From: an uncultured Bacteroidaceae bacterium
Lineage (GTDB): Bacteria; Bacteroidota; Bacteroidia; Bacteroidales; Bacteroidaceae
Direction of reading: 5' to 3'
Assembly (NCBI GenBank): GCA_905236985.1
Contig: CAJORF010000123.1
Span: 1-64,000, forward strand
Length of the DNA stretch: 64,000 nt
A program made the translations under genes and the position numbers. Below are positions 21,267 through 48,063 of the stretch, in pieces; positions within the stretch are counted from its first letter, which is position 1; each line of letters opens with the position of its first letter. The notes below the pieces were generated by a model, which saw nothing but the letters and a program-made list of their open reading frames with translations, was not told the origin of the DNA and ran no database searches.

Positions 21267-24200
21267 TTACTTCACGAGCACCTTGTCAATGGTACCATTG
21301 CTCTTGCGGACGATGTTGATGCCGCGACGGAGCTGGCTTTGCTGACGACCGTCAACACCATAGATAGCGGTGGTGGCAGTGGTCTGGCCTTCAATGCTGC
21401 TGACAGCGTCAGGAGCGGTGGTGCCGTGGTAGAAGAGCTTCCAATCTGTGAAGATTGTCCAGTCGCTGGCTATACCCTGAGCCTTGCGGATACCGATGGT
21501 GAGATTGCCATCCTCGCCGACTTGGAAGGCAAGCGTGTTGGTGTAGAGGTTCAGATCGAAGTAAGCAGAAGCGGCTTGCATATTGTCGGGGATGAACTGG
21601 CCTTCCATGCCTTCAGCCTCCACTTCGCTGCCTACGCCGAGAGCTACATCCTGTGCGCCGTCGAAGATGCTCTTCAGAGCAACACCGTCGGAACCTACGG
21701 AAGTGGTGACGTACATCACAGCGTTCAGTTCTTCGGTGCCTTCCAAATGTGCGTGGCCTACGCCGGGAGTGCCAAATTCTGCGTTAGGATTGTTGTCGCC
21801 ATAGCGATGGTAACCTTCAACGCTTACGGTGTAGAAACCGGGCTTGATGCCATTGAGGGTCTGGTAGTGGTTGAACTTCGGGCTGTCGCCTAAGTAGTTG
21901 AAGAACTCAAATGCGAAGTAGTCAACACCGTGCCAGAGGTCGCTGGTCCAGAAGAGGTCGCTGGAACTTGTTTCGTCCAAGCTGGTGTAGTGGGGGTTGA
22001 GGATAACGAAGGTAGCGTCCTCGCCAGCTTCGATATTCTGGGAGACACCAGCAGCCCAACCGTCACCGAGCTTCTGAATGTCGTCTCTCATAGCCTGAAC
22101 GGTAGGATAACCGTTGTCAACGTTGGCGGCAGCTTCGTCGAGGAGCGTAGAGTAATCTGTACTCATGCCGGAAAGGTTCTCAATGATAGATTGCAGGTAT
22201 TCAACTACGTTGGCAACTTGCTGGTGGACTTCGATGCTGTTCTTAACAGCTGCGATGGATTCATCGATCTCAGCAATCTTCTCGAGAGCCTCCTGAGGAG
22301 TCTCTACATTGTTGGCGTTGAACCTGATCAGCTCCTCAGCAGCTCTGGTGACATCGTCAGCGATGTTCTGAGGATCGTTCTCGTCGAGGATGGCGCTCAG
22401 CTCTTTCTGCTTCTTGTCGATCATGTCATAGTAGATTTCCATGTCCTGACCGTCATACATGAGACCGAAGTTGGAGAAGATGACCCAGTCGCTGCCTGTC
22501 TCGCAGTGGATACCGATGGTGAGGTCGCCGTCCTCAGCGAGAACCACCTTCACGTGGTTGGTGTAGTAAGGCTCGCCCGTGTTGGGGTTGATCTCCTGGA
22601 ACCAGTAGTAAGCACCACCCATACCGTTGGCCTTGTACATATTATGGGTACCATCGAGCACGTCGTAGTTGCCGTCGTGCAGACGGGGACGTTCCTCGCT
22701 ACCGTCGTAGTAGAGAGGTTCATCGCGCATCTGCTCTTCGTCATCGTTGAGGCTGATGAGGAATTCCTTGGTGATACCGCCATAGAGCCAAGTCTTGTCG
22801 GTGTCAGTACCGTCGTGGCGTGCGAAGCCCTGGAGCGTGACGTCATAGACACCGGCGGGCATGTTGGGAATCGTCTGGCTGAGGTCAAACGTATGATGGA
22901 AGGTCTCGATGTTCTTTGTGGCGAGGCTGAGCTCGGTCATGGGACCGTCGTTGATAGTCCAGCCTGTAGGATCAGCTGTCGTACCTGTGGTGAAGTTGGG
23001 GTTCACGAGCAGGAAGGTGAGGTCATCACCCTTCTTGATCTTGGAAGGATCGGAGATATAGTCACGCACCAATTGGCTGACCTTGTTCTGATACTCTTCG
23101 AGATCGTCAGCTGTCAGAGAACCTGCGTTGAAAGCAGACTCGAAGTCAGCGAGGAAGTTGTCGATTTCAGTCTGGAGATCGGGCCACTGGTTGGCATCCC
23201 CCAGACGATCGAGGGTGCTGTTGCCATCGTTGTAGATGGTCTTGAACTGAGCATAGAGCAGTTTGGAAGCTTCGACAGCTTCTATGGCAGCCTTGATAGC
23301 TTCAGCAGCTGCGGTTTGTGCAGCAGCATCGCCTGAGAGAGCTGATTCACCATCACTGATAGCGGATGTGAGCGCATTGCGTGCCTCGGCGCTGATATTG
23401 ATGTCATCATACGACTCGATGTTGTTTTCATATAGCTCTTCGAGCAAATCCTTAGCTTTCTTCAGTTCAGACTTCAGGATAGCGAGTTCGGGAGTGTCAT
23501 TAGACTTACCATAGTAGGTGATCTTGAAGTTGTCGGCAGAAATCCAGTTGGCATTAGTGTCTTCAACCTTCAGACCGAAGGTGATGGCCTCGTCGCCCTG
23601 GTTGATGAATGTGACGGAGAAGTGGGTTACACCGAGACGCTTGGTGTGAACGGGAGTTCTCTCTTCGCGTGAACCGGACTGAACGAATACGTAAACACCA
23701 TAGATGTCGGAGCCGTCGCCTTCGGCGGGATCATGACAAGCGGTAGCATCCAACTCAAGAACGTACTTACCTTGAGGCAAGTCGTAGATGGTCTGTGCAA
23801 TGACACCATTGCCGAGGACACCATTAGCTCGAGGAATCCAAGCTTCGATGAAGTTGGTGATGGAATAGCCGTTGTCGAGATTGGTGTCAGTACGTCCCTG
23901 CCATCCGAGGTTCTGACCCGTAACGGTGATGAACCAACCATCAACGTTGTTATCGAATGTCGGGTTCAGTAGCACGTCATCGGGAATCTCGATGCCATTC
24001 TCTTCGCTGGCATCAGCAAAATAGTCCTGGAACTTGGCACGGTTGAGAGCCAAACGCAGCTGCTCTCTGGCAGCGTCGATTTGCTCAGCAGTAGCGTTGG
24101 CATTGTCATAGACAGCCTTGGCAGCGGAAGCATCAACTGCACTTGCGTAGGCCGATTCCTGAATCTCATCGTAAAGCTCATAAAGCTTAACGCGAGCATT

Positions 24201-24857
24201 GTAAGCCTGCCAAGCTTGATAGTTGGTGCTGATGAACTGCCAAATGGCACGTTCGCCAGCGGGGATGTTGTTCAGGACATTGAGGGCGACCATGTCGTAG
24301 TCTTCATGCTCGAATTCGCCTTCGTCTACACCGAAATAAGTTTCTTGCTCAACAGTGTTAGTGGCTTGAATGGTGTAGCCGCCCTCTGTAGCAGTGATGA
24401 TGAAGTCGATACGACGACCTGTGCCACCATCAATCCAACTATTGGTGATCAATCCGTCGATAACATCCTCAGAAGTAAGGTAGCGGTCGCCACGGTTGGT
24501 GCCGAGGTGCTGGAGGTAGTAGTTGCCAGCCTCATTCTTGGTGAGCGTGATGGGGAGTGCCTGACCGTTGCCCATGGCATCACCAGCGCCGGAGAGGGCG
24601 ATGGACTGGTCCCAGAATACTGCGGGGTAAGCATCGCTGACCGTAGTGGCCACAACGTGCGTGCCCCAGTGGTTACCTGCGCCAACGTACAGGTTGGTAG
24701 CCGGATTGTAGAGGAAATACACGCCTCCGTCTTCGGGAGTGGTGGCTGCACCCATTGCGGGCTCTACAGCTTCGGGCTCTGCCCACTGTGCCATGGCACT
24801 TGTACTCATAAACAATGCGCCAGCGAGCGCAACGAGAGAGAGTAGCTTGTGTTTCAT
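21267..24857 (-). CDS. Large secreted modular protein with jelly-roll-like and helical modules and a short C-terminal sorting-like tail
   Basis: Signal peptide MKHKLLSLVALAGALFMSTSAMAQ; repeated NPTFDNNVDGW..NFIEAW..GVIAQTIYDLPQGKYVLELDA..WISADNFKITYYG modules; tail AIYGVDGRQQSQLRRGINIVRKSNGTIDKVLVK. Confidence 0.85.
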   Translation of the reverse strand: MKHKLLSLVALAGALFMSTSAMAQWAEPEAVEPAMGAATTPEDGGVYFLYNPATNLYVGAGNHWGTHVVATTVSDAYPAVFWDQSIALSGAGDAMGNGQALPITLTKNEAGNYYLQHLGTNRGDRYLTSEDVIDGLITNSWIDGGTGRRIDFIITATEGGYTIQATNTVEQETYFGVDEGEFEHEDYDMVALNVLNNIPAGERAIWQFISTNYQAWQAYNARVKLYELYDEIQESAYASAVDASAAKAVYDNANATAEQIDAAREQLRLALNRAKFQDYFADASEENGIEIPDDVLLNPTFDNNVDGWFITVTGQNLGWQGRTDTNLDNGYSITNFIEAWIPRANGVLGNGVIAQTIYDLPQGKYVLELDATACHDPAEGDGSDIYGVYVFVQSGSREERTPVHTKRLGVTHFSVTFINQGDEAITFGLKVEDTNANWISADNFKITYYGKSNDTPELAILKSELKKAKDLLEELYENNIESYDDINISAEARNALTSAISDGESALSGDAAAQTAAAEAIKAAIEAVEASKLLYAQFKTIYNDGNSTLDRLGDANQWPDLQTEIDNFLADFESAFNAGSLTADDLEEYQNKVSQLVRDYISDPSKIKKGDDLTFLLVNPNFTTGTTADPTGWTINDGPMTELSLATKNIETFHHTFDLSQTIPNMPAGVYDVTLQGFARHDGTDTDKTWLYGGITKEFLISLNDDEEQMRDEPLYYDGSEERPRLHDGNYDVLDGTHNMYKANGMGGAYYWFQEINPNTGEPYYTNHVKVVLAEDGDLTIGIHCETGSDWVIFSNFGLMYDGQDMEIYYDMIDKKQKELSAILDENDPQNIADDVTRAAEELIRFNANNVETPQEALEKIAEIDESIAAVKNSIEVHQQVANVVEYLQSIIENLSGMSTDYSTLLDEAAANVDNGYPTVQAMRDDIQKLGDGWAAGVSQNIEAGEDATFVILNPHYTSLDETSSSDLFWTSDLWHGVDYFAFEFFNYLGDSPKFNHYQTLNGIKPGFYTVSVEGYHRYGDNNPNAEFGTPGVGHAHLEGTEELNAVMYVTTSVGSDGVALKSIFDGAQDVALGVGSEVEAEGMEGQFIPDNMQAASAYFDLNLYTNTLAFQVGEDGNLTIGIRKAQGIASDWTIFTDWKLFYHGTTAPDAVSSIEGQTTATTAIYGVDGRQQSQLRRGINIVRKSNGTIDKVLVK

Positions 24858-25057: not shown

Positions 25058-28000
25058 TTACTTCACGAGCACTTTCTGCACGCTACCATCCTTGCGGACG
25101 ATGTTGATTCCGCGTTGGAGCTGGCTCTGCTGGCGGCCATCGATGCTGTAGATGATGGAGGATGCGGCGTTGACATCAGCTTCGAGGGCGTTGACTGCAT
25201 CGGGAGCGGTCATGCCGAGGAAGTAGAGCTTGAAGTTGTCAACAGCAAACCAGTTAGCTGTGGTTGATTGTGCGATGATTCCGACAGTGGTCAGTCCTGT
25301 GCCGTCAGCGCGGAAGTCAAGGGCGAATGTCTGAGGAGTGGAAGTTGCGCTACCGATGCTAACGTTGTCGTTGGCACCAGCTCCCTTGGCGTAAACATAA
25401 ACACCTTCGGGAACATCTTCGTTGCCCTGGTTGGTGGCGTAGCCATCAACGGTCAGACGATAGTATCCTGCGGGCAGAACAGCTGCGATGGTCTGATAGA
25501 CGCAACCGTCGGCGAGAGCTGCGTTGCCACCGTTCCAAGCTTCGAGGAACTGAGAGACGGTGATGCCTTCGTCCTCGTTGCTGTATGTGTTGTTGTCCTG
25601 GTAGCCCTGGTTGTTGCCCATCTTGCCGTCAGCAACCCAGTGGGGAGGAGTGACGCCGCGGTTAACGGTAGTCGAGAAGTCAGCGTTGAGGATCACAGCC
25701 GTGATGTCAACGGGAGCCTCTTCGGTGGCATCTACCATTTCTGTAGCACTGGTGACATATTCTACCCATGTTGTGGGCAGGGTTTTGATCCAGTTTTCGA
25801 GCTGTGCATTGCTCTGGAAGACATCTGCCTCAAATGCATCATTAATTTTTCCGATAAGATCTTCGAAGCCGAAGCTAGTGGGTGTCACTTCGAGCGTATA
25901 GATGAGAGCCTCATACTCGGGAAGGAGAGCTGAGAGCTCATCAACCAGAGACTGAGTCTTGGCAATCTCTGCGAGGGCGGCCTGCATATTGGTGATAGCA
26001 GCGGACTGAGTCTCGAAGCTGGCACCAAGAGCTGCCTTGCCTTCAGCGATAGCATCGTCCTTGAGTTTTTTGTTGGCGGGTACGCCGAGTGTTTCAATGG
26101 TCTGAAGCTGCTTGATGAGCGACTCAATGTCATCGTCGAGGCTGGCGATGCCGTTGTAGAAGATCTGGAAGCTGTACCAGATGGTCCAGTGGTTGCCCAG
26201 AAGCTGATCGGTACCGGCGATACCGGCGCGGAGTGTGCCTCCGTTCTCGAGGACGTTACCTGTAGCGCTAACCTCACATTGCTTAGCGAGGGCAGCGTAC
26301 TTGCTGTCAGAGAAGATCATGTAGGCGGAGTGTTGGTTGTTGGGCAGATAGTTTCCGTCGCCGCAGTCGTAGGGAGTGTCGAGGCCCTCGAAGAGCGGGT
26401 CGGCGATGGCTGCTACATTAAGCAGCGGGGTGTGATTCACGCCTGCATAGAGATAAGCATACTCGGCATCGGGGTCGTAGCCGTCGGCATTATAGTTGGG
26501 ATAGTTGGTATCGTTAGCCTCGACACGATAGAAGGCGAGGGTCTTGATGGTGTAGCTACCCTTCGGTAGGTTGGTGAAATCGCGTGAGATGTTGAACGGA
26601 CGGTTGTCCCAAACCTCAGCGGTGCTGTAGTTGGTCTTGAAGTTGCCCTCGCTCTTGGCGTTGCCATTCTCGTCGCGGGGGATCCAGACGGACTCTACGC
26701 CAGCCTCTGCATTAGCTGCGGGATAACCGTTGGCGAAAGCAGTCTGGGTGGTGCCGTAAGCAAATTCCATGTGGTCGAACAGCGGTGAGATGTCGATGGG
26801 ATTCTCGAGGGTGGCACCCTGAGCTACAGCGGCCTCGAAGATTTCCTGAGTCTTCTGCTTGATTTGTTCAGCATAACCAGCGATGGCAGCATCAATTTCA
26901 GCGGGAGAAGCAGAACCATTCTCGTAAGCAGCAGACCACTCTCCATAGAGGTTTTCTACCAAGGACTGAAGGTCGCCAGTGTATTTCTCCTGATCGGCAT
27001 CGAGCTGGTCAACGAAATCAGCGAGTTTCTTGTAGGCGGCTGCACTCTCGTCCAGAGCCTTGCGAGCAGCGTCAATCTTGTCAATAGCTGCAGTGTATTC
27101 ATCCTCTTTACTGTCATCGGAAGCAGCATTCACGAGAGGAGCGGCATCAGAGAGAGCACTTTGAAGAGCATCAATTTTTGAAGCTTCAGCCTTAATGTCA
27201 TCAGCATAGAATTCGTAGGTGTTGTAAGCTACAACGAGGGCAGTCCAAGAGGGAGCATCCTTGCACTCACCGATGGCGTAGAGACGGAAGTTGTCCATTC
27301 CCATCCAGTTGCAGTTGGTGCTCTCTGCCATCAGACCGATGGTCATGGTGGCGTTACCTGAATAGTCAAAGTCGAACTGGAAGTGCTCGGGGAAACCGTT
27401 CTCAGTGGAGAGGGATTCGCTGTGGATGGTGTAGTTGCCGTTGTTGTAGAACAGGTAGATACCCTTTTGTTCATCATCGCCGTCGTATTGTCTGACAGCC
27501 ATGACATCAGCTTCGAGGCGGTAGCGTCCCTTAGGAAGACCCGTGATGCTTTGGCAGATGACACCGTCGCTCAAAGCAGCACCTTTGCGCCAAGCCTCAA
27601 TGAAATTCTTCAGTATGAACTCATCATATCCTTCAGCAGGATTGCCATTGCCGTCGTTAGGATAGCCAGTGCCCTGCACTTGCAGGTTCTGACCCATACC
27701 CTCGGTAATCGTCCAAGGTTTCTGTCCATTCTCGAAGTCGGGGTTCTCGATGGTAACGTCTGTGATGTCGATGGGGTTGCTCTCGCTGGATTCAGCAATC
27801 TTGGCGATTACGACAGCACGTGTGATGTCAGCCTTGAGGCTTGCTGTTGCAGCATTGAGCTCGTCAACACTTGCGTTAGCATTGTTATAAACAGCAGCGT
27901 AGGCAGAAGGATCAACATTGTTTTCAACAGCCTTCAGATACTCGTCATAAAGAGCCTTGCGTGCTGTAAAAACGCGAAGTGAAGCGGCATAGTCGCTACC

Positions 28001-28612
28001 ATAGTTGGCCTCTGTGACAAAGCGCCATTCGATATTGTTGTCTGTGATGCTCTTGTTGAACTTGACGGGTTCACCGGGAGCGTTGACGCCTGCATACTGA
28101 GTGCGGGCGTTGGGGAATGTGCCTCCCTCAAGCGTGCTTTGGATGTAGTAGTTGCCGTTTTCGTTCTTTGTCAGCACCCAGATAGCATTACGTGCCTGGC
28201 TGCCGAGATCGACGAAACCGTTTTCCTCACCGTCGCGGAAGAGGTATTTGTTGCTGACCTCGTAATCGACACGGTCGTGATCGCCGGTGAAGTAGAACGT
28301 TCCGTTCATCTTGAGCTTGAAGCCATTGACAGTTTCCATTTCGCCTGTTTCAGGGTTCTCCTCCTCAACGGAGGCAGCCTCGGCTACGACAGTAAAATAG
28401 GGCTCGCCAGTTGTGCTTACACTGATCTGGGTCGCCCAGGCGTTGGCACCGATGACGAATTGGCCGCAACCGACATTCATGATGTAATATATACCTCCAT
28501 CCTCAGGGTCAGAACCTTGAATGGAAGGCGCGACGGGAGCAGTCCACGTCTGAGCCATGGCCGTGAGCGTCATTGCCGCTACGGCCACGAGGGAAAGAAA
28601 ACGCTTTCTCAT
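25058..28612 (-). CDS. Large secreted modular protein, tandem paralog of 21267..24857
   Basis: Signal peptide MRKRFLSLVAVAAMTLTAMAQ; repeated NPDFENGQKPW..NFIEAWRKG..GVICQSITGLPKGRYRLEADV modules; tail IIYSIDGRQQSQLQRGINIVRKDGSVQKVLVK. Confidence 0.85.
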   Translation of the reverse strand: MRKRFLSLVAVAAMTLTAMAQTWTAPVAPSIQGSDPEDGGIYYIMNVGCGQFVIGANAWATQISVSTTGEPYFTVVAEAASVEEENPETGEMETVNGFKLKMNGTFYFTGDHDRVDYEVSNKYLFRDGEENGFVDLGSQARNAIWVLTKNENGNYYIQSTLEGGTFPNARTQYAGVNAPGEPVKFNKSITDNNIEWRFVTEANYGSDYAASLRVFTARKALYDEYLKAVENNVDPSAYAAVYNNANASVDELNAATASLKADITRAVVIAKIAESSESNPIDITDVTIENPDFENGQKPWTITEGMGQNLQVQGTGYPNDGNGNPAEGYDEFILKNFIEAWRKGAALSDGVICQSITGLPKGRYRLEADVMAVRQYDGDDEQKGIYLFYNNGNYTIHSESLSTENGFPEHFQFDFDYSGNATMTIGLMAESTNCNWMGMDNFRLYAIGECKDAPSWTALVVAYNTYEFYADDIKAEASKIDALQSALSDAAPLVNAASDDSKEDEYTAAIDKIDAARKALDESAAAYKKLADFVDQLDADQEKYTGDLQSLVENLYGEWSAAYENGSASPAEIDAAIAGYAEQIKQKTQEIFEAAVAQGATLENPIDISPLFDHMEFAYGTTQTAFANGYPAANAEAGVESVWIPRDENGNAKSEGNFKTNYSTAEVWDNRPFNISRDFTNLPKGSYTIKTLAFYRVEANDTNYPNYNADGYDPDAEYAYLYAGVNHTPLLNVAAIADPLFEGLDTPYDCGDGNYLPNNQHSAYMIFSDSKYAALAKQCEVSATGNVLENGGTLRAGIAGTDQLLGNHWTIWYSFQIFYNGIASLDDDIESLIKQLQTIETLGVPANKKLKDDAIAEGKAALGASFETQSAAITNMQAALAEIAKTQSLVDELSALLPEYEALIYTLEVTPTSFGFEDLIGKINDAFEADVFQSNAQLENWIKTLPTTWVEYVTSATEMVDATEEAPVDITAVILNADFSTTVNRGVTPPHWVADGKMGNNQGYQDNNTYSNEDEGITVSQFLEAWNGGNAALADGCVYQTIAAVLPAGYYRLTVDGYATNQGNEDVPEGVYVYAKGAGANDNVSIGSATSTPQTFALDFRADGTGLTTVGIIAQSTTANWFAVDNFKLYFLGMTAPDAVNALEADVNAASSIIYSIDGRQQSQLQRGINIVRKDGSVQKVLVK

Positions 28613-32686: not shown

Positions 32687-33169
32687 ATGACCCGAAACAT
32701 GAGAATGAATAGAATGGCTCGTTGTCTCTGTTGCCTTGCAGCATTATTGTGTTTGACACTCTCGCTGTCGGCAGCCGATAAGGAGCCGAAGATGAAGCGC
32801 GTATATATGTTTGGTGTTGCTGTGTCGTTGATTGATTCCACCGCATACCAAACAGACGTTCAAGTCATTGACAGTGCTTGGATTGAACCTCATCAGTTCT
32901 TGGTAGATCGCGCACTCTATAGCTTGCAATTGCAATCTCACGTGGAAACACAGGAGCATCACAAGAACAGCATCTGTACCATTTACTTCAATACCAGCCC
33001 TCGCAAGATTCAGCGCAAGTGGGCGAAGGTGAAAAAACACTGCGAGAAAGATCCATCCATTCACTATCAGATTCTTCCCAAGGAGCGTTTCTGCTTTAAG
33101 ACAGAAGAATATAAACCGGTCATCATCGGCGAGCCTGAAGAAAAAACCAATAATAGTTCGAAGAAATGA
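32687..33169 (+). CDS. Exported hypothetical protein
   Basis: Signal peptide-like ARCLCCLAALLCLTLSLSAADKE; stop overlaps the start of the next CDS (ATGA). Confidence 0.7.
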   Translation: MTRNMRMNRMARCLCCLAALLCLTLSLSAADKEPKMKRVYMFGVAVSLIDSTAYQTDVQVIDSAWIEPHQFLVDRALYSLQLQSHVETQEHHKNSICTIYFNTSPRKIQRKWAKVKKHCEKDPSIHYQILPKERFCFKTEEYKPVIIGEPEEKTNNSSKK

Positions 33170-34062
33170 CGCCGCATCGTTTCAAGGTTGCCCTGCATTG
33201 CTTGCAGGTAAATCTGCCCGACGCGCTGTCGGCATCGGATATCATCCCTTCCTTCTCGCCGTTTGTCTGCGAGGAGGAGGGTGATGTGCTTTTTTGTATG
33301 GATGTGGAGGAAGGGGCTGCCCCAGACTTCAGTGCGATGGACGAGATTGGACAGTTCGACTGCGGCGGTGCCAACCACGGAGTCTATCGTGCCGATGATG
33401 GCAGTTATGCCTTCGAGATTAGTCTGCCGGCCTGCGATGGTGGTCGGCTCAGTTGCTGCCTCATGGCAAATGCCGACTTCAAGCACTGTCGTGCCGTGCT
33501 GACAGGGTCTTCGCTGCGTCAGCATCAGTTCGGACTGAACAATGCGCTCATGATGTCCTTTGCCTTTGCCGCTGCCGAACAAGACACCCTGCTCATCCAC
33601 GCTTCTGTCATCCGCAACGGTGGCTATGGTTATCTCTTCACCGCTCCTAGCGGCACAGGAAAGAGCACGCATACCCACCTGTGGTATAAGCATATCCCTG
33701 GCTCTGATCTAATGAACGATGATAACCCTGTCGTGCGCATCATAGATGGTGAGACTCGAATCTATGGGTCACCGTGGAGTGGCAAGACTCCTTGCTATCG
33801 CAATATTTGGGCACCCGTAGGTGCCATTACGCGCATCGAACAGCGTCCTGAGAACACTATCCGTCGTATGGCTCCTGTTGAGGCTTTCGCGATGCTGTTG
33901 CCGGCCGTAAGCTCGATGAAGTGGGATAAGCGTGTCTATATTGGTATCTGCGACACGATAGCCCATCTTCTGCCCATTACCCCCATTTTCTGGCTTGGCT
34001 GCCGTCCTGACGAAGAGGCTGCAAGGGTGTGCTATGAGGCGGTGAGAAGGAGTGGAAAATGA
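33166..34062 (+). CDS. HPr kinase/PEPCK-like P-loop kinase family protein
   Basis: LLIHASVI, FTAPSGTGKSTHTHLW (P-loop), LMNDDNPVVRI, YGSPWSGKTPCYRN. Confidence 0.8.
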   Translation: MTPHRFKVALHCLQVNLPDALSASDIIPSFSPFVCEEEGDVLFCMDVEEGAAPDFSAMDEIGQFDCGGANHGVYRADDGSYAFEISLPACDGGRLSCCLMANADFKHCRAVLTGSSLRQHQFGLNNALMMSFAFAAAEQDTLLIHASVIRNGGYGYLFTAPSGTGKSTHTHLWYKHIPGSDLMNDDNPVVRIIDGETRIYGSPWSGKTPCYRNIWAPVGAITRIEQRPENTIRRMAPVEAFAMLLPAVSSMKWDKRVYIGICDTIAHLLPITPIFWLGCRPDEEAARVCYEAVRRSGK

Positions 34063-34071
34063 AAAATCGGA

Positions 34072-34620
34072 ATGAAGGAACTTATCAAGAAAATAGCGCG
34101 ATGGTTGGCAACGCCTTGGAGGCGTGCTAAGCAGCGTCGTTATGCAGACCCGACAGCTGATGCTTTACCGCGACGGGAAATGCCCAATGACAAGTTTCTT
34201 CCTCTCGTCCGCGAGTATGTTTCAAACGGTGAGCCCGTTGTTATCAATGTCAAGGGCTATTCCATGCGTCCCTTCTTGGAACACCTGCGTGATCGTGTGG
34301 AGCTTGCTCCGTGTACAACGCTCAATATTGGTGATGCCGTATTGGCAGAGATCGCTCCAGGACATTTCGTGTTGCATCGCATCATTGCTATCAATGGCGA
34401 TCATCTCACCTTGATGGGTGATGGAAACATCCGTGGTACAGAGCATTGCACCATTAGTGATGTCTGTGGCGTTGTCACCCGTTATCTTCGTCCCAATGGT
34501 CATGTCCTGCTGGCCAGCGATCCCAAGCTCCAGCGTCGGATACGTCTTTGGCGTTGCCTGCTTCCCATCCGCCGCTTCCTCCTGTTCCCTTATCGCATGA
34601 CCATCGACGAAAGGCAGTAA
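34072..34620 (+). CDS. S24/S26 (signal-peptidase-like) family protein, Ser-His type
   Basis: VKGYSMRPFL (Ser), GHFVLHRIIAINGDHLTLMGDGN (His in HRI in place of Lys). Confidence 0.8.
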   Translation: MKELIKKIARWLATPWRRAKQRRYADPTADALPRREMPNDKFLPLVREYVSNGEPVVINVKGYSMRPFLEHLRDRVELAPCTTLNIGDAVLAEIAPGHFVLHRIIAINGDHLTLMGDGNIRGTEHCTISDVCGVVTRYLRPNGHVLLASDPKLQRRIRLWRCLLPIRRFLLFPYRMTIDERQ

Positions 34621-34688
34621 GGTCTCATTCCGTTGAATATAGAATAACAAGAATAATTTGTAATTTAATAATAATAGATACATATAAG

Positions 34689-34958
34689 ATGAAGATTAAA
34701 GAAGGATTTGAACTGAGAGTCATCTGTGGTGAGGCCATCATTGTCGCCCACGGAAAGCAAAACATAGATTTCTCTAAAATCATCAGCCTCAATGAGAGCG
34801 CTGCGTATCTGTGGCATGCGGTTGAAGGTCGCGATTTTAATGCAGAGGAATTAGCTCGTCTGCTTACTGAGGAGTACGAGGTCGATGAGGCTGTTGCCCT
34901 TCGCGATGCTACTAAGGTCATGGCCGACTGGCAAGAAGCAGGACTGGTGACAGATTGA
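34689..34958 (+). CDS. PqqD-family peptide chaperone (RRE-like)
   Basis: IDFSKIISLNESAAYLWHAVEGRDFNAEELARLLTEEYEVDEAVALRDATKVMADWQEAGLV matches PqqD architecture. Confidence 0.85.
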   Translation: MKIKEGFELRVICGEAIIVAHGKQNIDFSKIISLNESAAYLWHAVEGRDFNAEELARLLTEEYEVDEAVALRDATKVMADWQEAGLVTD

Positions 34959-46825: not shown

Positions 46826-48010
46826 TTATAGACAGTGATTCATCACATTGGCTGGCGGACGTTCGTTCGCCAGCTCTTGTTTCATGAAGTCCATGTAAGG
46901 TGCTACGTGGGCAAAGAAGTGGCGATAGTCGTCGCAGAGGTAGTTGAGACCGGATGTGCCGTTGGCGGTGGTGCGGATACGATCCTTCGGACAACCCCCA
47001 TTGCAGGCAAAGAGCCAAGGACACTGGCGGCACTGCGCTGGAAGGGCATCCCGCTTGGCTACGCCGAAGGTGCGTTGTCGCTGACTATACATCATTGCCG
47101 TGATGCTGTCATTGTTGATATTGCCCAAACGATATTCAGGGAAGACGAAGTGGTCACAGGCATAGACATCTCCATTGTGCTCAATGACGGCGGCATGACC
47201 ACAGGTGATGCCCATCGAACAGACGCCGGGCGGCTGTCCGACCCAACAGGCCAATGTGGAATCGAAGAGCTGCACGAAGACTTCGCCGACATCCATGCGC
47301 ACCCATTCGTCGAAGATAGTGCAAGCAAAGTGTGCGAACTGTCCAGGGCGGACGCTGAAATCAGCTAACATCCCTTCTCCTTTGTCGATCATGGAAGCGA
47401 GATGACGACCATCGGCGTGCGGTAGGATGCGCTCGATGATAGGCGTGAACTGGATATAGTGCGCTCCAATCTCCTTATAGAAATGATAGACATCAAGGGG
47501 ATAGTCGGCGTTGAAGTCGTTGACCACTCCCATTACATTCCATTCCACGCCATATTTTTTCAAGAGCTCTATACCCTGCATGACTTTATGAAACGAGGGT
47601 TGACCGCCACGGGCACGGCGATATTCGTCGTGGAATTCCTGTGGTCCGTCAATACTGATGCCGATGAGCCAGTGATTGTCGCGGAAGAAACGGCACCACT
47701 CGTCGGTGAGCAGCGTGCCATTGGTTTGAAGGCAGTTTTCGATGAGATGATCGCCTGCGTACTGACGTTGCAGTGCTAAAGCACGCTTATAAAAGCTGAT
47801 AGGACGCATCAATGGCTCACCGCCGTGCCATGTGAAAAGCACCTGTGGCTGTGTTTGCGACTGGATGTATTGGCGCGTGAAAACTTCAAGCGTCGCGTCG
47901 CTCATCAATAAACCTCGTTTCCTATCCTGCGCGTCATACAAGTTACTCTTCTCGAGGTAGTAGCAATACTCGCACGAGAGGTTGCACAGGCTGCCCACGG
48001 GCTTCGCCAT
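46826..48010 (-). CDS. Anaerobic sulfatase maturase (radical SAM/SPASM)
   Basis: MAKPVGSLCNLSCEYCYYLEKSNLY (CxxxCxxC), GGEPLMRPISFYK, SPASM Cys clusters. Confidence 0.92.
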   Translation of the reverse strand: MAKPVGSLCNLSCEYCYYLEKSNLYDAQDRKRGLLMSDATLEVFTRQYIQSQTQPQVLFTWHGGEPLMRPISFYKRALALQRQYAGDHLIENCLQTNGTLLTDEWCRFFRDNHWLIGISIDGPQEFHDEYRRARGGQPSFHKVMQGIELLKKYGVEWNVMGVVNDFNADYPLDVYHFYKEIGAHYIQFTPIIERILPHADGRHLASMIDKGEGMLADFSVRPGQFAHFACTIFDEWVRMDVGEVFVQLFDSTLACWVGQPPGVCSMGITCGHAAVIEHNGDVYACDHFVFPEYRLGNINNDSITAMMYSQRQRTFGVAKRDALPAQCRQCPWLFACNGGCPKDRIRTTANGTSGLNYLCDDYRHFFAHVAPYMDFMKQELANERPPANVMNHCL

Positions 48011-48063
48011 GACGTAAAGGGGATGGGAGAGGGGAGAGAGCAAGGGAGGTTGGGAAGGGAGTC

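Follow-up and report, generated by a model that had tools for sequence, protein, structure and literature searches.

Genes for an HprK-like kinase, an S26-like peptidase and a PqqD-type protein lie side by side in an uncultured, Prevotella-like rumen member of the Bacteroidaceae, within a stretch of 64,000 nucleotides (the window), and they raise the question of whether they form a peptide-maturation system and what its substrate might be. The initial annotation had described them, together with an upstream gene for an exported protein, as a kinase/protease/RRE cassette without a lasso cyclase, and had proposed either the exported protein or an unlinked small ORF as substrate. Comparable proteins are part of the system for linear polyphosphorylated peptides (LPP; LppA/K/B/S/N/D), reported in 2026 in Paenibacillus alginolyticus and other Bacillota, which comprises the HprK-like LppK, the RRE LppB, the SipW-like LppS, LppN and LppD (PMC13381572).

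Organization and conservation of the locus

Inspection of open reading frames between positions 32687 and 34958 of the window confirmed four co-directional genes on the forward strand, with the overlap and gaps as first described. The gene for the 160-aa exported protein (32687-33169) overlaps by ATGA with that of the 298-aa HprK/PEPCK-fold kinase (LppK-like, 33166-34062), which is followed after 9 nt by the gene for the S26-like serine peptidase (LppS-like, 34072-34620) and, after a further gap of 68 nt, by that for an 89-aa discrete RRE of the PqqD type (LppB-like, 34689-34958). This order is kept in nearly all of 24 same-genus loci (a few starts are ambiguous, and one stretch, L063, stops before PqqD), a recurrence far beyond chance. 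The block is flanked by degP or rpoD in these loci, with a variable set of genes downstream, and 4-nt overlaps are frequent among the kinase, peptidase and PqqD genes.

Among 80 loci that were fetched by the kinase from an independent collection of named genomes, the complete triad of kinase, peptidase and PqqD was present in 59, while the exported-protein gene was found in only 18. The proposed cassette is partly supported, in that the triad recurs and the exported gene turned out to be separable. Since the latter is also kept in genomes without the kinase and is sometimes unlinked, the functional unit is the triad (33166-34958), and the exported gene is a conserved neighbour. Elsewhere in the window, a radical SAM/SPASM-type protein encoded at 46826-48043 on the reverse strand, unlinked to the triad, reads like an anaerobic sulfatase maturase.

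Identity of the three proteins

The kinase has no match in Pfam and a weak one to HprK_rel_A in NCBIfam (TIGR04352; E = 2e-5, 23.9 bits, with a cut-off of 200), with which it has the P-loop kinase superfamily in common. It carries the motifs SGTGKST (Walker A), NDD and GSPWSGKT, the residues of which are invariant in an alignment of 22 sequences. The S26-like peptidase gave sub-threshold sequence matches only in Pfam and NCBIfam, and a weak alignment with SpsB and SEC11C. HMMER searches against the PDB were too remote for both proteins, and their assignment was settled by fold search: PEPCK and HPr kinase are the best PDB folds found by Foldseek for the AlphaFold (AF2) model of the kinase (pLDDT 93), and the AF2 model of the peptidase (pLDDT 92.5) matches the LexA/UmuD and signal peptidase (SpsB) folds. 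Ser64 (in GYSMRP) and His102 (in LHRI) are invariant in the 21 aligned peptidase sequences; D117 and E124 are both invariant as well, either being a candidate for the acidic third catalytic residue. Read by eye, the peptidase has no evident transmembrane segment, and its termini look amphipathic. Both identities had been proposed from motifs and are upheld by these results.

The identity of the PqqD protein is secure: it belongs to Pfam PF05402 (E = 2e-16), and in it N35, W42, Y63, A70 and D73 are invariant from its own genus to remote families. Its profile (A9) matches TfuB1 (8e-8), TbiB1 (1e-5), PbaB1 (1e-3) and LppB (PDB 9X8Z; E = 0.0026). The pocket of LppB for the leader motif YxxP consists of N33, Y60, V67 and D70 (PMC13381572), and these residues align with the invariant N35, Y63, A70 and D73, the tyrosine-binding Asp being kept.

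The best structural relatives of the profile, TfuB1, TbiB1 and PbaB1, are lasso RREs, and YxxP is a lasso leader motif too (PMC12710340). Both facts would fit a decayed or cyclase-less lasso system in which PqqD is a B1 remnant and a cyclase encoded elsewhere takes part in maturing the small peptides described below, as lasso precursors. We consider this very improbable, given that no Asn-synthetase-like lasso cyclase was found near triads in the 153 sequences scanned, and that the peptidase is S26-like and not the cysteine protease B2, of which the recurrent neighbour clusters show no sign. The sole cyclase-like match among the 153 sequences, besides four that read as MnmA, is at L134 (G201:C3:860000-870000), where a PqqD locus includes an Asn-synthetase-like SGGLDS protein in a genome without a clear kinase; this is probably a real lasso-type cluster.

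A dispersed family of candidate precursor peptides

Searching for small ORFs near homologous loci, as the initial annotation had advised, proved productive: clustering of the small ORFs beside kinase loci revealed a family of peptides with the start MK..YxxP, which was then widened with a leader profile. Leader profiles were adopted because a simple DNA pattern, MKxxxYxxP, gave 11 matches in the host genome and 2 in the control, with one clearly real, and was rejected as a finder. Members of the family are ~30-75 aa long and consist of MKKxYxxP, ~15 residues, A-x-Ser and an acidic tail. Within 2.4 Mb of fetched DNA, 69 non-redundant precursors were identified, all 69 with YxxP near the N-terminus. 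Ser is found at positions Y+18 to Y+20 in 64 of them and Thr at Y+19 in two; Y+16 is occupied by F, I or L in 62 and Y+13 by Glu in 43. Comparison of ten precursors with Pfam and NCBIfam revealed no meaningful family, the paeninodin model reaching just 0.11 for one. Prevotella-type predicted cores often end in RRGxWGN[LVI]W or W-x3-W.

The host genome contains 13 matches to the wider profile, unlinked to the triad, one of which begins with MKKTYIAPELKEQLMETQNIIALSLRG. In the nine host peptides that were read, Ser is at Y+19 in eight and at Y+20 in one, and the cores are acidic and 30-44 residues long. No YxxP precursor ORF was detected with the leader regex within the 64-kb window, in agreement with the earlier remark that the operon shows no recognisable one; their genes are dispersed over other parts of the genome, where most adjoin genes for exported-looking proteins. 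A precursor was found immediately upstream of the kinase in L055 (10343-10465), adjoining PqqD in L102 (6724-6879), and between the PqqD and kinase genes in L138. From L199 (G378:C1:1796000-1815000) to ~1848 kb, in a Bacteroides-like genome, ~9 closely similar YxxP peptides are encoded within ~50 kb, and those that were read adjoin large lipoproteins.

Co-occurrence with the kinase and the role of the exported neighbour

Kinase and peptide were both detected in 117 of 151 genomes of the family, the kinase alone in 6, the peptide alone in 6 and neither in 22, so that their presence agrees in 139, in a table assembled by hand from the kinase and peptide listings with 8 genomes of each negative list inferred by subtraction. 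The resulting Fisher p of 7e-16, like that of 1.3e-12 for the high-quality genomes (peptide in 81/86 kinase-positive versus 3/20 kinase-negative), is inflated by kinship among the genomes and comes from a peptide model trained partly on loci of these same genomes. Five of the six genomes with peptides and no detected kinase are below 95% complete. Within genera, the peptide was present in 5/5 kinase-positive versus 0/3 kinase-negative genomes of g158, 3/3 versus 0/2 of g157 and 1/1 versus 0/7 of g26. The first, narrower profile had given 35/42 versus 4/26 overall, the former figure becoming 32/39 once genomes whose sole match was a seed to itself were removed. The peptides thus track the kinase, and the unlinked small ORF anticipated as a substrate candidate probably corresponds to this dispersed family.

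The exported protein follows a different pattern. Its gene is present in 147 of the 151 family genomes, kinase-negative ones included, and in 106/106 of those of high quality; among 198 genomes of the order, the protein is confined to this family, and it belongs to no Pfam or NCBIfam family. The gene mostly adjoins the triad in its own genus; several other genera have it at an unlinked site or ~1.2 kb from the triad. The ATGA overlap, the adjacency and the conserved synteny within the genus could be taken to mean that the triad processes this protein and that the YxxP peptides are unrelated. However, besides the distribution of the peptides, its persistence where the triad is missing and its scarcity among the kinase loci of named genomes indicate that it is not a dedicated substrate; it lacks a YxxP leader, and its conservation sits in the body of the protein. 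We therefore give this explanation next to no credence and have dropped the exported protein as a member or substrate of the cassette.

Proposed mechanism

The triad is read as a Bacteroidota LPP-like maturase because its machinery and the YxxP...Ser leader match those of LPP and its PqqD protein aligns with LppB. With a probability that we put at about 0.83, it would be a stand-alone maturase acting on dispersed precursors, as judged from sequence comparison. The PqqD protein would grip the precursor leader through YxxP, the kinase would phosphorylate the conserved Ser located 19 (or 20) residues past the leader Tyr, and the Ser/His peptidase, assisted by the RRE, would cut the leader just before A-x-Ser, thus freeing the acidic core of 30-45 aa, which may be exported. 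A signal-peptidase-like cleavage of A-x-S after the Ser is a possible alternative.

Association of precursors with exported proteins

A DNA search of the host genome for the tail pattern VNG[KRNQ]K[VI]x[VI]K followed by a stop returned 12 genes (none in the control). The pattern is unrelated to the peptides, yet nine of these genes are followed, at a distance of 14-166 nt and in the same orientation, by one that encodes a YxxP peptide. These partners, with a VNGKKVLVK-like tail, are large and mostly exported-looking proteins. In Bacteroides-like genomes, the peptides are located directly upstream of lipoproteins, some of them fimbrillin-like (PF13149). A script placed 23 of the 69 peptides behind a tail-bearing protein and 26 ahead of a lipoprotein, and script and reading by eye together pair ~57 of the 69 with one or the other. 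The GIYIVNGKKVLVK-like C-terminal tail of the partners resembles the T9SS type A sorting domain (TIGR04183), with sub-threshold matches only, and a T9SS identity is not claimed. In the window, two giant proteins encoded at 21267-24857 and 25058-28612 on the reverse strand have GINIVRK...KVLVK-like tails, like those of precursor partners.

Given the location of the precursors beside genes for tail-bearing proteins and lipoproteins, it is probable that exported proteins are what the mature peptide works with or is co-expressed with. The tight pairing could also mean that the triad does act on the peptides, but that each of them serves the exported protein encoded beside it as a regulator or chaperone-like partner; phosphorylation would then be a signal, and no product would be released. 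This seems unlikely to us, as the LPP precedent is a cleaved, phosphorylated core and a conserved Ser/His peptidase suggests cleavage. Under the preferred reading as a maturase, we tentatively consider, with somewhat less than even confidence, that the pathway is a core element of surface biology, in which one vertically inherited maturase would supply many different phosphopeptides, every one of them serving solely the exported protein whose gene is next to its own. If so, the peptides might, for example, help to display, anchor or regulate their partners, rather than being a secreted natural product.

Distribution in other Bacteroidota

Outside its own genus, the kinase family was found in three settings: the stand-alone triad (A); the triad with NTP_transf_5 and an ABC exporter (B, according to Pfam matches in L055); and a capsule-like arrangement of sugar transferase, PqqD, NTP_transf_5, kinase, Wza-like and Wzc-like genes, without S26 (C). 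In L107, L117, L119, L120, L122, L125 and L051, PqqD and the kinase have a sugar transferase gene on one side and Wza/Wzc-like genes on the other, in apparent capsule clusters, with no S26 gene and in most cases accompanied by NTP_transf_5. In L121 and L124, a single S26-kinase pair is surrounded by PqqD genes and ABC-transporter ORFs, two of each. Four kinase loci (L235, L252, L255 and L287), two of them with YxxP peptides, come from MAGs titled Fibrobacter, which could be mislabelled Bacteroidota bins or represent a second phylum. The window operon contains no exporter or NTP transferase gene; the only NTP_transf_5 of the host genome is at C18, unlinked to the triad, with no ABC exporter nearby and no LppN/LppD partner locus there. 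The maturase core appears to be vertically inherited in Bacteroidota, with precursors linked to surface-protein genes.

Comparison with lasso and LPP systems

Paeninodin-type phosphorylated lasso peptides share with the present system an HprK-like Ser kinase, a discrete PqqD-like RRE and a [Y/W]xxP leader, and differ from it in that the triads have an S26-like peptidase, with no lasso cyclase or B2 seen nearby. The likeness to LPP lies in the working parts. The LPP leader has the form YxxPxVLxHQxIxFETxxS, with Ser 18 residues past the Tyr; LppA is cleaved after T-1, its core starts with A1-Q2-S3, S3 is polyphosphorylated, and the S3T change is inactive; cleavage of the leader requires the RRE, and the clusters are often located in capsular loci (PMC13381572). 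In both systems an HprK-like kinase is encoded next to a discrete RRE and a SipW-like Ser/His peptidase with an acidic third residue; the leader carries YxxP, with Ser 18 (LPP) or 19-20 (here) residues after the Tyr, often preceded by A-x; and Ser is preferred over Thr. NTP_transf_5, an ABC exporter and capsule loci also accompany the kinase family in other Bacteroidota, as in L055. On the other hand, the middle of the LPP precursor (HQ, FET) is not conserved here, the core sequences differ, the P1-equivalent residue of the predicted cleavage site is F, I or L instead of Thr, and the window operon is devoid of an NTP transferase or MsbA-like exporter. The system is therefore called LPP-like, its working parts matching those of LPP and its strict membership of that class being partial.

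LPPs have been described as restricted to Bacillota, in a report whose main text does not contain the string 'bacteroid' (PMC13381572), and the open-access literature searched held no earlier report of an LPP-like system in Bacteroidota. While LPP precursors are clustered with their machinery, those found here are multi-copy, unlinked and paired with tail-bearing proteins or lipoproteins, several to more than 20 per genome, providing dozens of predicted substrate sequences. An orphan PqqD/HprK/S26 operon becomes in this way a testable pathway, whose exported-protein neighbours hint at a function in surface proteins, a link that the Bacillota LPP systems did not reveal. Finally, LPPs were in 2026 a patchy cluster trait of Bacillota, whereas the closely similar machinery described here is a syntenic, near-core triad in Bacteroidota, near-universal in a gut/rumen family.
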